In this document: one piece after another, positions 378 to 58,016 of the stretch
Layout: each line of letters starts with the position of its first letter
How positions within the stretch are numbered: the stretch's first letter is position 1
NCBI RefSeq assembly: GCF_001591025.1
Contig: NZ_BCTZ01000016.1
Location: forward strand, 62,001 to 126,000
DNA: 64,000 nt
DNA from: Sphingomonas soli NBRC 100801
GTDB lineage: Bacteria > Pseudomonadota > Alphaproteobacteria > Sphingomonadales > Sphingomonadaceae
Reading direction: 5' to 3'
The notes under the pieces: model-generated
Databases searched by the model: none
What the model was told of the DNA's origin: nothing
The model's input: the letters and a program-made list of their open reading frames with translations, nothing else
Position numbers and translations under genes: made by a program

Positions 378-540
378 GCTTGCAATGTAGGATTTCGCCT
401 GCTTGGCTGGGCCGGTCGGCATTGTCGGCCGCTCTTTGAAATCGTCAGCCGCTGGTGCTTCGTCACCGCAAACATCGGGAACATTCGCGACGCAGGGTGG
501 CCGTTCTTGGTGTCACCTTAGTGTCACCTTTGGCGCGATC
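378..540 (+). repeat. Dispersed intergenic element, copy A
   Basis: This ~163-bp stretch has a close reverse-complement copy at 57852-58016. Three blocks are identical in both copies: 378-396, 434-451 and the 3' end 505-533. The sequence allows a nested stem: outer GATTTC 391-396 with GAAATC 438-443, inner GGCCGG 410-415 with TCGGCC 425-430. The 3' end carries GGTGTCACC at 509-517 and AGTGTCACC at 520-528. The element fills almost the whole gap between two convergent genes and has no plausible reading frame. Its function is unknown: a structured RNA, a small non-autonomous mobile element or a protein-binding site are all possible. Confidence 0.8.
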
Positions 541-30531: not shown

Positions 30532-30654
30532 GCCGACCAGATAAGGATCAACGTGCTTCACCGCCACGTAAAAAACCGGAAACGCTTGCGCGCTTGCGCG
30601 GGCGATGAAGCGTGCTACGCATGCGGCACACCGCTATTCCCGAGAGGTCGTTTC

Positions 30655-32349
30655 ATGCTTCGATACACTGCCCCGCTCGCGCTGGCCGCGCTCCTTGCCG
30701 TGCCTGCCGCTGCCCAGGATCACGCCGCGGTGCCGCCGCTCGCGGCTCCGCTGCCCACGGCAGAGAAGAACGCGATCCTCAACGCAGAGCTTCCCGCCGA
30801 TCAGGCGGCGATGAAGGCGCATGTCATGTTCCTCGCATCGGACCCCATGAAGGGCCGCGAAGCCGGCACCAACGAGTTCGATATCGCCGCGCAATATGTC
30901 GCCTCGCAATTCTATGCGGCGGGCCTCCGCCCGGCGGGCGACGAAGGCTCGTTTCTGCAAAAGGTGCCGCTGCTGAGCTGGAAGGCGGCCGACAAGGGCA
31001 GCATGAGCGTGGTCACCAAGAAGGCCACCACCGATCTGGTCTTTGGTGAAGATTATTATCCCGCCGCCAATCCGGACAAGCTCGATTACAGCCTGACGGC
31101 TCCGGTCGTGTTCGTCGGCTATGGCCTGGTCGGTTTTGGCCGCGACGATTACAAGGGCGTCGATGTGAAGGGGAAGATCGTCGCCTTCTTCCCCGGCGCG
31201 CCGGACAATATTCCGCCGGAAGAGCGCGCCCATCTGGCGAGCGCCGCAGGCGGCAAGGCGATGATCGCGATGCGGAAGGGCGCGGTCGGCTTCATCACCC
31301 TTGAATCGCCGCGCGCCGGGCGTGGCAGCGCGCCTTTCGCTGCGCTCGCCAATGCCTGGGATCGTCCGCGGGTCGGCTGGGCCAAGGAGGACGGCACCGG
31401 CCATGTCATGAACGACAAGACCCCGGGTCTCGGCACTGTGAGCAAGGCGGGCGCCGCCAAGCTGTTCGCCGGGTCCAAGGCCAAATTTGACGACATCTGG
31501 AAGCTGGCCGAGAATGACAAGGCGGTGTTCAAGGCGGTCCAGCTCCCCGGCACGCTGACCGTGAAGCTCAAGACCGAAACCAAGCCGATCACCAGCTACA
31601 ACGTTGCGGGCCTGCTCAAGGGCAGCGATCCCGCGCTGTCTTCGGAAGTGGTCGTCCTTTCGGCGCATCTCGACCATGTCGGCGTCGGCAAGGCCAACCA
31701 GTTTGGCGACACCATCTATAATGGCGCGATGGACAATGCCGTTGGCATCGCCTCGCTGATCGAGGAAGCCAAGCGCTTCAAGGAAAGCGGCAAGGCGCCG
31801 CGCCGCTCGGTGCTGTTCCTGGCTGTGACGGCCGAGGAAAAGGGCCTGGTGGGCGCCGATTACTTCGCCAACAATCCGACGCTGCCCAAGGGCAATCTGG
31901 TCGCCAACGTCAATCTCGACATGCCGATCATCAACTATGCCTTTGAAGACGTGGTGCCGTTCGGCGCGGCGCATTCGACCATCGGCGAGATCGCGACCAA
32001 GGCAGCGGCGGAGATCGGCGTGACCGTTTCGCCCGATTCGCGCCCCGACGAAGCCTTCTTCGTCCGTTCGGATCATTACCGCTTCGTCCAGCAGGGCATC
32101 CCGTCGGTCTTCCTGTGGCCGGGTGAGAAGGGCCCGGGCAAGGCTGCGGTCGATGCCTTCCTTGCGAACAATTATCACAAGCCCTCGGACGAAGTAGTCC
32201 AGTCGCCCCGGATCGACTGGAAATCGGGCGTGCGTTTTGTCGATGTGAACTATCGCATCGCCCGCGCGATCGCCGATGGCGACCAGAAGCCGGTTTGGAA
32301 GAAGGGCGATTTCTTCGGTACCTTCTTTGGCGGAGCGATGGAGAAGTGA
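30655..32349 (+). CDS. Secreted M28 family metallopeptidase, first of three paralogues
   Basis: A 564-residue exported protein. It has a signal peptide (MLRYTAPLALAALLAVPAAA), a protease-associated domain inserted at about 120-330, and an M28 catalytic domain. Zinc ligands and the catalytic Glu lie in VLSAHLDHVGVG, NGAMDNAVG, LAVTAEEKGLVGADYF, NLDMPIINY and NYHKPSDE. It probably hydrolyses peptides or amino-acid conjugates in the periplasm or outside. The ATG is preceded by GAGAGG (30642-30647). It overlaps the second paralogue by 4 bases. Its FFVRSDHYRFVQQGIP differs more from the other two than they do from each other. Confidence 0.92.
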   Translation: MLRYTAPLALAALLAVPAAAQDHAAVPPLAAPLPTAEKNAILNAELPADQAAMKAHVMFLASDPMKGREAGTNEFDIAAQYVASQFYAAGLRPAGDEGSFLQKVPLLSWKAADKGSMSVVTKKATTDLVFGEDYYPAANPDKLDYSLTAPVVFVGYGLVGFGRDDYKGVDVKGKIVAFFPGAPDNIPPEERAHLASAAGGKAMIAMRKGAVGFITLESPRAGRGSAPFAALANAWDRPRVGWAKEDGTGHVMNDKTPGLGTVSKAGAAKLFAGSKAKFDDIWKLAENDKAVFKAVQLPGTLTVKLKTETKPITSYNVAGLLKGSDPALSSEVVVLSAHLDHVGVGKANQFGDTIYNGAMDNAVGIASLIEEAKRFKESGKAPRRSVLFLAVTAEEKGLVGADYFANNPTLPKGNLVANVNLDMPIINYAFEDVVPFGAAHSTIGEIATKAAAEIGVTVSPDSRPDEAFFVRSDHYRFVQQGIPSVFLWPGEKGPGKAAVDAFLANNYHKPSDEVVQSPRIDWKSGVRFVDVNYRIARAIADGDQKPVWKKGDFFGTFFGGAMEK

Positions 32350-33941
32350 TCCGCGCTCTCCTTCTCGCGACCAGCCTCCTCGTCGCCGCTCCGGCGGTGG
32401 CGCAAGACCTGTCGACCGAAGCCGCCGCGCTCAAGTCGCATGTCGCGTTCCTCGCCTCCGATGCGATGAAGGGCCGCGCTACGGGTTCGTCCGAGCTTGC
32501 CATCGCCGAGCAATATGTCGCTGCGCAGATGCTCGCGGCGGGCCTCAAGCCCGGCGGGCCGAACGGCAGCTGGCTGCAGCCGGTGCCGCTCGTCTCGTAC
32601 AAGAGCGCCGATCATGGCAGCCTCACGCTCAAGCGCGGCGACACGGTCACCAAGCTGGAATGGGGCAAGGATTATTTCCCGCGCGGCAATCCGCACATCG
32701 CCAAGGTCGCATTGAATGCCCCGGTGGTGTTCGCGGGCTATGGCGTGGTCGACAAATCGGTCGGCTATGACGATTACAAGGGCCTCGACGTAAAGGGGAA
32801 AATCGTCGCCGTGCTGCGCGATGCGCCCAAGGCGATCACCAATGGCGATGCCCGCGCCCATCTGAGCCAGCCCGACGAGCAGGCCCGTGTCGCCGCAGAG
32901 CGTGGCGCGATCGGCGTCATCCTGATCGAAGGCAATACGCGGCATGCGCAATTCCCGTTCGCAGCCACCGCCCGCTTCTGGGATCGTCCGGGCATGACCT
33001 GGTCCGACGGTGCCGCCGCGGGTCCGCTCGCGCCGCCCTTCATGTATCTGGGCTTTGACGGCGCGGCGAAGCTCTTCGCCGGGTCGAAGATCAAGTGGGA
33101 CGCGGTGCTCGCGGCAGACAAGGCAGGCACCAAGCTGCCGCGCGGTCCGATCGGCGTGACGGCGGAAGGCGTTGCGAACACCGACATCTCGAAGGTTTCG
33201 GCAAACAATGTCGTCGGCATGCTCGAAGGGGGCGACCTGAAGAACGAATATGTCGTCATCTCCTCGCACCTCGACCATGTCGGCGTCGGCAAGGCGGATG
33301 CGACGGGCGACACCATCTATAACGGCGCGATGGACAATGCCGCCGGCACCGCCGCCATGCTCGAAGTCGCCAAGCGGTTCACCTCGGAAGGCAAGAAGCC
33401 GCGCCGTTCGCTGCTGTTCGTGGCGGTCACGGCGGAGGAAGTCGGCCTTGTCGGCTCCGAATATTTTGCCGCACACCCGACCGTGCCGAAGGGCAGCATC
33501 GTCGCGGACGTGAACCTCGACATGCCGATCCTCACCTATCCGTTCGAGGATCTCGTCGCGATCGGTGCCGATCACAGCTCGGTCGGCGAGATCGTCGCGC
33601 AGGCTGCGGCGAGCGAGGGTGTGAAGGTCGTTCCCGATCCGATGCCGGAGGAGAATTTCTTCGTCCGCTCGGATCATTACAGCTTCGTCAAGGCAGGCAT
33701 TCCCTCGGTCTCGCTCGATCTCGGGCCCGGTGGCCCCGGTGCGGCGGCGACCAAGGAGTTTCTGGACAAGCATTACCACCAGCCCTCCGACGAGATCGGC
33801 CTGATCGACTGGACCCAGGGTCTGCGCTTCGTGAAGCTCAACTTTGCGATCGCCAGCGCGCTTGCGAATGCCGATCAGCGCCCGACCTGGAACAAGGGCG
33901 ATTTCTTCGGCCTCACCTTCAAGGGGCCGATGGCGAAATGA
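32346..33941 (+). CDS. Secreted M28 family metallopeptidase, second of three paralogues
   Basis: A 531-residue paralogue of its neighbours. It has a signal peptide (VIRALLLATSLLVAAPAVAQ), then the shared AFLASDAMKGRATGS region, a protease-associated domain and a complete M28 active site: SSHLDHVGVG, NGAMDNAAG, VTAEEVGLVGSEYF, NLDMPIL and HYHQPSDE. The start is GTG 32346, overlapping the previous stop; an upstream in-frame ATG would disrupt the signal peptide. It ends in a 4-base overlap with the third copy. Confidence 0.92.
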   Translation: MIRALLLATSLLVAAPAVAQDLSTEAAALKSHVAFLASDAMKGRATGSSELAIAEQYVAAQMLAAGLKPGGPNGSWLQPVPLVSYKSADHGSLTLKRGDTVTKLEWGKDYFPRGNPHIAKVALNAPVVFAGYGVVDKSVGYDDYKGLDVKGKIVAVLRDAPKAITNGDARAHLSQPDEQARVAAERGAIGVILIEGNTRHAQFPFAATARFWDRPGMTWSDGAAAGPLAPPFMYLGFDGAAKLFAGSKIKWDAVLAADKAGTKLPRGPIGVTAEGVANTDISKVSANNVVGMLEGGDLKNEYVVISSHLDHVGVGKADATGDTIYNGAMDNAAGTAAMLEVAKRFTSEGKKPRRSLLFVAVTAEEVGLVGSEYFAAHPTVPKGSIVADVNLDMPILTYPFEDLVAIGADHSSVGEIVAQAAASEGVKVVPDPMPEENFFVRSDHYSFVKAGIPSVSLDLGPGGPGAAATKEFLDKHYHQPSDEIGLIDWTQGLRFVKLNFAIASALANADQRPTWNKGDFFGLTFKGPMAK

Positions 33942-35554
33942 AGAAGCAGCTCCGCGCAATCCTGCCGTTCCTCCTCCTCGCCGCGCCGGTCGCGGCGCAG
34001 GAGCTGCCGGCGGACCAGGCGGTGCTCAAGGCGCATGTCCAGTTCCTCGCGTCCGACGCTCTGCGCGGGCGCGAGGCTGGCTCGCCCGAATTCAACATCG
34101 CTTCGGAATATATGGCCGCGCAGATGGCGGCGCGCGGGTTGAAGCCCGGTGCGGCTGGCGCGTGGTTCCAGCCGGTCACGCTCGCCAGCTACAAGCCTGC
34201 GAACCCGGGTGCATGGACGCTCCGGCGCGGGACCGACGTCATCCCGTTCCAGCCCGGCATGGATTATTTCAGCGCCACGGCGGGCGGCATCGCCGATTTC
34301 GCCGCAACCGGCGAGCTTGTCTTCGCGGGCTATGGTATCTCCTATCCCCAGGGCGGAATCGACGATTTCAAGGGGCTGAACGTCAGGGGCAAGATCGTTG
34401 CGATCCTGGCCGGGGCGCCCAAGGGGCTGCCGAGCGACGTTGCCGCGCACCTTTCGGATTATGATCAGCGGGCTGCCGCAGCCGCAAGGCTGGGCGCGAA
34501 GGGCGTGATCCTGCTCGAAAGCGCCGAGGGGCGTGCGCAATATCCGTTCGAGTCCATCGCGCCTTCGTGGAACTATACCCGCAACGGATGGGCAGGCCCG
34601 GACGGGCGGCTGTTCGGCAAAACGCCCGGCGCACCCGGTATCGGATATGTCAGCACGGCCGGTGCCGAGAAGCTGTTCCAGGGCGGCCGGATCAAATGGA
34701 TCGACGTGATCGCGGCGGAAAAGGCGGGAAAGAAGATCCCCACCGGCCCGCTGCCGGGTACGCTTTCGGTTACCTCGAAGCTGAACATCGAGACCAGCCC
34801 GTCGCACAATGTGGTGGGTCTGCTCGAAGGTTCGGATCCGGTTCTCAAGAACGAATATATCGTCCTGACCGCGCATCTGGATCATGTCGGCGTGGGCACC
34901 GCCGTGAACGGCGACCGCATCTATAATGGCGCGATGGACAATGCCGTGGGGAATGCGGTGATGCTGGAAGTCGCCCGCGCCTTCCAGCAATCGGGAAAGC
35001 GCCCGCGCCGTTCGATCCTGTTCGTCGCGCTGACAGCCGAGGAAAAGGGGCTGATCGGATCGGACTATTTCGTCAATTTCCCGGTCGTCCCCAGGGACCG
35101 CATCGTCGCCAATATCAACATGGATATGCCGATCTTCACCTATAAGGTGGAGGACGTCGTGGTGCTGGGCGCCGAACGTTCCAGCCTGGGCCCGGTGATC
35201 GAGCGCGCGGCGGCGGAGGAGGGGCTGAAGGTGGTTCCGGATCCCTTGCCCGAGGAGAATTTCTTCGTCCGCTCGGATCATTACAGCTTCGTCAAGGCGG
35301 GCATCCCTGCGGTTTCGATCGACACCGGCCCCGGCGGTGCGGGCGCAGCGGCGCAGAAGAAGTTCCTGGAGGAAAATTACCACAAGCCGTCGGATCAGAT
35401 CGACCTGCCGTTCGATTGGCCCTCGGTCGCGAAGTTCGCGCGGCTGAACTATGCGGTGGCCCGCGCGCTGGCCGACGACGACAAGCGCCCGCGCTGGAAC
35501 AAGGGCGACTTCTTCGGGCTGACCTTCGATGGATATGGGGCGAAGACGGAATAG
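33938..35554 (+). CDS. Secreted M28 family metallopeptidase, third of three paralogues
   Basis: A 538-residue paralogue with signal peptide MKKQLRAILPFLLLAAPVAA. The catalytic set is intact: TAHLDHVGVG, NGAMDNAVG, LTAEEKGLIGSDYF, NMDMPIF and NYHKPSDQ. FFVRSDHYSFVKAGIP is identical to that of the second copy, which points to a relatively recent duplication of those two. The ATG overlaps the previous stop. An epimerase-like gene starts within a few bases of its end, so the transcript may include it. Confidence 0.92.
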   Translation: MKKQLRAILPFLLLAAPVAAQELPADQAVLKAHVQFLASDALRGREAGSPEFNIASEYMAAQMAARGLKPGAAGAWFQPVTLASYKPANPGAWTLRRGTDVIPFQPGMDYFSATAGGIADFAATGELVFAGYGISYPQGGIDDFKGLNVRGKIVAILAGAPKGLPSDVAAHLSDYDQRAAAAARLGAKGVILLESAEGRAQYPFESIAPSWNYTRNGWAGPDGRLFGKTPGAPGIGYVSTAGAEKLFQGGRIKWIDVIAAEKAGKKIPTGPLPGTLSVTSKLNIETSPSHNVVGLLEGSDPVLKNEYIVLTAHLDHVGVGTAVNGDRIYNGAMDNAVGNAVMLEVARAFQQSGKRPRRSILFVALTAEEKGLIGSDYFVNFPVVPRDRIVANINMDMPIFTYKVEDVVVLGAERSSLGPVIERAAAEEGLKVVPDPLPEENFFVRSDHYSFVKAGIPAVSIDTGPGGAGAAAQKKFLEENYHKPSDQIDLPFDWPSVAKFARLNYAVARALADDDKRPRWNKGDFFGLTFDGYGAKTE

Positions 35555-57851: not shown

Positions 57852-58016
57852 GATCGCGTCCAAAGGTGACACTAAGGTGACACCAAGGACGCTTCGCGGC
57901 GGCGGCGAATGTTCCCCATATCCGCAGTGACGAAGCGGCATCCGGCTGACGATTTCAAAGAGCGGCCGGGAGTGCCGACCGGCCGAGCCAAGCAGGTGAA
58001 ATCCTACATTGCAAGC
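57852..58016 (-). repeat. Dispersed intergenic element, copy B (inverted)
   Basis: Reverse-complement copy of the element at 378-540. In the element's own orientation the outer stem GATTTC/GAAATC and the inner GGCCGG stem are kept. The inner stem is better paired than in copy A: a G-T pair becomes G-C, and a closing mismatch becomes C-G. The tandem dyads are GGTGACACT at 57865-57873 and GGTGACACC at 57876-57884. It lies in the 381-bp gap between divergent genes, so it is not tied to one gene arrangement. The rest of that gap holds the receptor promoter region and nothing else I can identify. Confidence 0.8.

Follow-up and report, generated by a model that had tools for sequence, protein, structure and literature searches.

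Two copies of a non-coding sequence of about 160 bp lie in opposite orientation, 57 kb apart, in the 64,000-nucleotide stretch of Sphingomonas soli DNA analysed in this work (the window). The question they raise is what such an element is and what keeps it in the genome. The original prediction, which described the inverted pair and a nested stem within it, left a structured RNA, a non-autonomous mobile element and a protein-binding site as options.

Element family and genomic distribution

Pairwise alignment bore out the inverted recurrence. The two copies are homologous over their full length with long identical blocks, and in a whole-genome search copy B matched copy A with E = 1e-46 and 86% identity over the element. 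Far from being the only two copies anywhere, they belong to a family with about 30 chromosomal copies in the S. soli genome. The 5′ 18-mer CTTGCAATGTAGGATTTC, allowing up to three mismatches, gave 35 matches in the 3.5-Mb genome and the 3′ repeat gave 33; the controls (a reversed pattern for the 18-mer) gave none. In a sample of one genome per species, the 5′ motif (at most one mismatch) was found in 79 of 201 congeneric genomes, about 20 of which carry 15–67 copies, while most genomes have 0–2. The family is restricted to Sphingomonadaceae with a patchy distribution, is sparse beyond the genus in the rest of the order, and across the class the 5′ motif occurs at about chance level. Many copies are intergenic. 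In S. soli alone the element length ranges from 117 to 299 nt, the spacer varying freely in sequence and length, and similarity within a genome is higher than between genomes.

As had been stated, copy A lies between convergent and copy B between divergent genes (by gene calls from a simple codon model); furthermore, copy B is co-oriented with a downstream glycosyltransferase gene. The argument drawn from this context against a promoter role fails, since the element bears its own promoter-like end. In dispersed copies the 3′ repeat frequently abuts the stop codon of a convergent gene.

The absence of a name for the element also held: nothing in the window reached the Rfam threshold, and no named element of such a kind was found in the open-access literature. 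The plasmid and phage collections searched gave no match, so a phage or plasmid origin was rejected. An exact 16-mer gave 36 matches in 2.9 million viral contigs, which was judged to be near chance, and scanning GTDB contigs for exact matches to the repeat of S. soli (G000) returned only unrelated chance matches.

Promoter-like 5′ end

The core order of the element from 5′ to 3′ is a promoter, often a hairpin, the boxA GCTCTTTGA, a variable spacer and a tandem direct repeat of 9–11 bp (Table 1). The 5′ end is predicted to be a sigma70-type promoter, with TTGCAATGTAGGATTT as the -35 region plus spacer and a weak extended -10. In the logo of 159 motif sites nothing is conserved upstream of C379; the pattern that follows is TTGCAA, a 17-nt spacer, TGn and T....T. 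The conservation of CTTGCAATGTAGGATTT is partly imposed, as this block was the search key; outside it, T and G at offsets 21–22 and T at 24 and 29 are conserved at the 159 sites. The -10 hexamer is poor, with T and not A at -11, and promoter activity would therefore need an activator. Elsewhere the same motif precedes leaderless genes, whose ATG is mostly at offset 36–38, where transcription would start, and this position gives independent support for the promoter reading. At several motif sites a LexA box (GTTC-N7-GTTC) lies over the -10, for example at phage-tail-like genes. Regulation by a DriD-type WYL protein was considered and rejected, as the published operator ATACGAC-N7-GTCGTAT (consensus from PMC12340889) differs from the conserved block.

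Table 1. Features of copies A and B in the window.
Feature	Position	Strand	Basis or remark
Copy A, whole element	379..537	+	~30 homologous copies in the genome; missing from the syntenic site in G095
Copy A, first base of conserved 17-mer CTTGCAATGTAGGATTT	379	+	logo of 159 copies; block also search key
Copy A, -35-like hexamer TTGCAA	380..385	+	logo of 159 copies
Copy A, 17-nt spacer TGTAGGATTTCGCCTGC	386..402	+	conserved TGTAGGATTT and TG (400-401) of extended -10
Copy A, -10-like hexamer TTGGCT	403..408	+	T conserved at first and last place
Copy A, GC-rich hairpin	413..431	+	partly upstream of predicted RNA start; modest support, not universal
Copy A, predicted transcription start	about 415	+	ATG offset 36-38 in leaderless genes corresponds to 415-417 here
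Copy A, boxA GCTCTTTGA	431..439	+	context GCTCTTTGAAATCGT; own rRNA leader GCTCTTTGACATTGT
Copy A, 3′ tandem direct repeat GTGTCACCTTA/GTGTCACCTTT	510..531	+	near-identical repeat behind HTH gene at G000:C12:229792
Copy B, whole element	about 57856..58015	-	G163 has none at the syntenic site
Copy B, -35-like hexamer TTGCAA	58009..58014	-	sequence and logo
Copy B, -10-like hexamer	57986-57991	-	sequence and logo
Copy B, boxA GCTCTTTGA	57955..57963	-	sequence
Copy B, 3′ tandem direct repeat	57862..57883	-	sequence and repeat search

boxA and leaderless open reading frames

The word GCTCTTTGA was read as boxA because the 16S rRNA leader of S. soli itself carries it (within GCGCTCTTTGACATTGT). It is exact in 82 of the 102 aligned copies with a recognisable box, and in the elements the boxA matching the rrn boxA of the genome sits downstream of the promoter. 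Comparison with leaderless ORFs (at least 80 aa) at the 159 sites gave 86 sites with boxA only, 15 with an ORF only, one with both and 57 with neither; boxA and a leaderless ORF nearly exclude each other (p = 3e-5). In E. coli reporter systems, RNA polymerase was reported to become resistant to Rho on untranslated RNA when boxA acts with NusB and NusE (PMC4807359). The order of promoter, hairpin and boxA is the same as in the rRNA operon leader (boxB-boxA-boxC; PMC4807359, PMC10250234), and the boxA word is identical in the elements and in the genome's own leader. On the other hand, the elements have no rRNA downstream, a different promoter and about 30 dispersed copies.

RNA stems and folding

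The outer stem GATTTC/GAAATC is refuted, because GATTTC is part of the promoter, upstream of the predicted transcription start, and its partner is rarely kept: among 82 copies with CTCTTTGA from several genomes, GATTTC is present in 77 and GAAATC in 18. The inner GGCCGG hairpin fared better, with 77% of the cells paired over a 26-sequence set and some double changes, so covariation is not absent. However, it is weak, and a +3 slide still gives 71%; in G114 and G124 the hairpin has little excess over shuffles. The predicted RNA fold of copy A is no better than that of shuffles (z = 0.29), while copy B folds better (z = -2.21). The GC-rich hairpin is found in most dispersed elements, including most S. 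soli copies, although it is absent in some copies, for instance of G169 and G012. The reading of the family as structured regulatory RNAs, with the nested stem as their hallmark, is thus largely refuted and has hardly any probability left. The nested stem was rejected as the essence of the element, which is not primarily a folded RNA.

Tandem 3′ repeats and TerS-like HTH genes

The elements end in a pair of tandem units, each 9 or 11 bp long, which are GTGTCACCTTA/GTGTCACCTTT in G000, GTGTGACCCTG/GTGTGACCTTC in G124, AGTCAACTT/AGTCAACTT in G114 and others elsewhere. Each of the four main repeat types is confined to one of the ten genomes compared, where it accounts for 25/30 (G000), 15/19 (G124), 14/19 (G114) and 5/12 (G163). 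A PhoB box was dropped as an explanation, since genomes differ in the unit and several have one of 9 bp. The end is preceded by a longer array, built of an 11-bp unit resembling GTGTCGCGTCN, in G114 and in part of the G163 and G412 copies; two G114 elements (L176, L183) contain long arrays of degenerate GTGTCGCGTCN, with an autocorrelation of 0.58–0.74 at period 11. Some 3′ repeats lie behind unrelated genes (glyS, a HAD phosphatase and a TauE-like gene), and the repeat may thus have a general 3′-end role; few ordinary genes carry it, as judged from five examined repeat sites without the element-type 5′ end.

Both ends of the elements recur on an HTH gene. A gene for a 311-aa HTH protein (G000:C12:228849-229781) starts from CTTCCAATGTAGGATTTC with its ATG at the leaderless distance, and one of the genomic repeat sites lies directly behind its stop codon. 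The protein family corresponds to phrog_4044 (terminase small subunit) and is present in 190 of the 201 congeners (~95%); the G124 relative has a weak match to Pfam Sf6_terminase. In seven genomes (G000, G124, G114, G127, G149, G169 and G101) the TerS-like gene has the genome's own repeat type behind or across its stop codon, an agreement in which kinship was ignored. In several relatives the stop codon is inside the repeat. The gene-end repeats are TAGTGTGACCCTGGTGTGACCTTCG in G124 and CGTGTACTTCGTGTACTTTG and GTGAACTTAGTGAACTTCC for two G127 paralogues; those of G149, G169, G101 and G114 match the dispersed copies with some sequence drift. About 20 other species with few or no dispersed copies still have the tandem repeat at the end of the HTH gene, and in many of them the promoter block was not recognised upstream of it. 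The repeat is therefore an old feature of the gene, tracked by the dispersed copies within each genome. Since the elements and the HTH gene have the same ends, one protein may be linked to the whole population of dispersed units.

The gene is, however, not a sufficient cause of the dispersed copies, because the family is nearly ubiquitous and the elements are patchy; many genomes with an HTH gene have few elements or none. Among the proteins scanned, no nuclease domain was recognised in the HTH family and there was no match to the HUH family; without a recognised nuclease domain the HTH protein alone cannot explain mobility. In G163 no intact HTH gene with the repeat of that genome was found. 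A truncated HTH gene with the repeats occurs at locus L025. An orphan gene, encoding a TerS-like protein with two HTH motifs and having a leaderless start, is preceded by the same promoter at six loci (L093, L096, L097, L105, L099 and L101) and stands beside rplKA in several species; at the S. soli locus (L083) the promoter is kept and the gene is reduced to a 3′ remnant.

Turnover of copies

The G163 genome is syntenic over the window, with ~78–90% identity in aligned blocks. It has the element at site A, none at site B, and two elements where S. soli has none, near 7.5 kb and 46.1 kb. In G095 the genes flanking copy A abut with no element between them. Comparison of copy A with this empty site allows a duplication of at most 2 bp (AG), which could be chance; the other empty sites are too diverged. 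Many element sites are not shared even with sister species. These comparisons support gain or loss of copies between sister species, with either direction possible at each site. Some positions are common to distant species (the acp/spt locus in five genomes and folP in two), which also fits vertical inheritance with loss. No terminal inverted repeats were reported in the element region, whose two ends differ, and no transposase was recognised. The original prediction is thus partly supported: it counted a non-autonomous mobile element and a protein-binding site among its options, while its nested stem as the defining feature is wrong or unsupported. None of the results that it named as refuting came about, although covariation is weak.

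Some elements of G169 (L444-L448) contain inverted CTCCTGCGAAAGCAGGAG segments; these look as if another mobile repeat, unrelated to the element, had inserted into the spacer. In the window, at 30640-35554 (+ strand), three paralogous genes in tandem encode M28-like metallopeptidases (family named from sequence) of ~540 aa each, with ~66–70% mutual DNA identity; G163 has the same set.

Proposed function and alternative explanations

We hypothesize that the elements are a REPIN-like population of dispersed non-coding transcription units tied to the resident TerS-like HTH gene, with boxA standing in for translation, a reading to which we give an even chance. It builds on the promoter-like 5′ end, the rRNA-type boxA, the genome-specific 3′ repeat, the same ends on the HTH genes and the turnover of copies, from which we infer repeat binding by the HTH protein, transcription and a mechanism of mobility. 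The original prediction was right about a multi-copy, unnamed, non-coding element and missed the promoter, the boxA, the tandem repeats and the HTH link. Transcription from the promoter would depend on an activator and begin ~36 nt inside the element, and NusB-S10 would bind boxA in the RNA and make RNA polymerase resistant to Rho, so that the polymerase would reach the 3′ repeat. This anti-termination would replace the protection that translation gives to the versions with an HTH gene. The 3′ repeat may be recognised by a DNA- (or RNA-) binding protein specific to the lineage, in the simplest case the HTH protein, and this trans-acting reader would drift together with the repeat. Copies would spread and often be kept between gene ends. 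The logic of the parts would be to transcribe, avoid early termination and reach the repeat, as the HTH gene would do by translation. A more specific version is tentative: a domesticated phage-type terminase small subunit would read the lineage-drifting tandem repeats and propagate or control the dispersed promoter-boxA-repeat RNAs, with anti-termination instead of translation carrying transcription to the end of the element.

Alternatively, the element may be a small non-autonomous MITE-like transposable element, an internal-deletion descendant of the HTH-gene cassette, whose promoter, boxA and repeats would do nothing for the host, being passengers or sites for a transposase. This is possible, though we doubt it. 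The presence or absence of copies at syntenic sites, their greater similarity within than between genomes, the truncated HTH gene with repeats and a copy number varying patchily from 0 to 67 are all in its favour. Against it speak the lack of terminal inverted repeats, of a recognisable transposase and of any plasmid or phage match, and the single well-resolved empty site, where no target-site duplication is clear. Moreover, the conservation of boxA and promoter over many genomes points to a function at least for the element itself, and the sites common to distant species do not fit easily.

It is rather unlikely that the copies form a small-RNA regulon under one activator, with loci acquired singly and kept for antisense or trans regulation of their neighbours. 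Their own promoter and boxA, the position of the 3′ repeat at the end of convergent genes, the acp/spt and folP sites common to several species, and a promoter shared with SOS and HTH genes would all suit it, but the freely varying spacer, the fold of copy A and the many sites unshared even between sister species argue against it. Still more improbable is a role in termination, with the 3′ repeat acting at gene ends as a protein-dependent terminator or roadblock and each element serving as a terminator cassette between convergent genes: repeats do stand directly behind or overlap the stop codons of HTH and a few ordinary genes, and dispersed copies often abut a convergent stop codon, but ordinary genes with the repeat are few and a terminator would have no use for a strongly conserved promoter and boxA.

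Relation to known systems

Dispersed intergenic repeats are common in bacteria, and few of them have a known partner gene. The hypothesis of a transcribed population tied to the HTH gene comes closest to the REPIN/RAYT (TnpA-REP) system as described in the accounts consulted (PMC3116915, PMC8049555, PMC8266576), which likewise has dispersed short non-coding units of lineage-specific sequence, a resident chromosomal gene with the same repeats and a patchy occurrence between related genomes. Here too a resident gene has the same lineage-specific ends as the dispersed units. According to the same accounts, the REPIN ends are palindromic and come in inverted pairs, whereas the ends of this element are a promoter and a tandem direct repeat without palindromes. 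The RAYT is a Y1 (HUH) transposase flanked by repeats, whereas the gene flanked here is the TerS-like HTH gene (phrog_4044) without a recognised nuclease. In contrast to REPINs as described there, the Sphingomonas units carry boxA. In the GafYZ-controlled promoter of the Caulobacter gene transfer agent (GTA), a site between -35 and -10 recruits an anti-terminator with NusA, NusG and NusE (PMC11150451), NusE being the partner of the boxA-binding NusB; this offers a precedent for loading anti-termination within a promoter. However, no GTA cluster follows the elements and their conserved spacer is not the GafZ palindrome. With MITEs the elements share the short non-coding form, the ends common with a longer gene-bearing form and the presence or absence at orthologous sites, but they have no terminal inverted repeats or clear target duplication, and no transposase was found.

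To our knowledge, no dispersed intergenic repeat combines a promoter with an rRNA-type boxA. If the hypothesis is true, the elements would be a class in which ribosomal anti-termination, and not translation, brings transcription to the end of the unit. Because the TerS-like HTH partner (in ~95% of the sampled congeners) and its likely binding site are available together with naturally diverged versions, the co-evolution of specificity is directly testable. The findings also suggest what orphan terminase small subunits may do, and that boxA is used in settings other than rRNA, CRISPR and phage.

Other genes preceded by the promoter block

The motif precedes terS-like genes, but a GTA promoter was rejected, as these genes are orphans with no large terminase in the fetched flank. 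The two terS-like genes examined with the promoter adjoin rplKA, and the dispersed copies precede no GTA structural gene cluster. A transposon of 15–20 kb flanked by inverse motifs (G005, G193) was likewise rejected, since the motifs serve there as promoters, with LexA boxes, of unrelated genes for secreted proteins. At L116 (G005:C4, positions 328 and 15009) and L117/L118 (G193:C5), the motif and the adjacent LexA-type box GTTCACCCTTTGTTC precede two facing genes for secreted proteins ~15–20 kb apart. One of the secreted proteins is a predicted protease, and TonB-receptor and IS21-like genes are nearby. Genes for pectate-lyase-like or tailspike-like proteins start from the same promoter block at L088, L106 and L473 (G033, G070 and G127), where a LexA box over the -10 suggests SOS-controlled expression.
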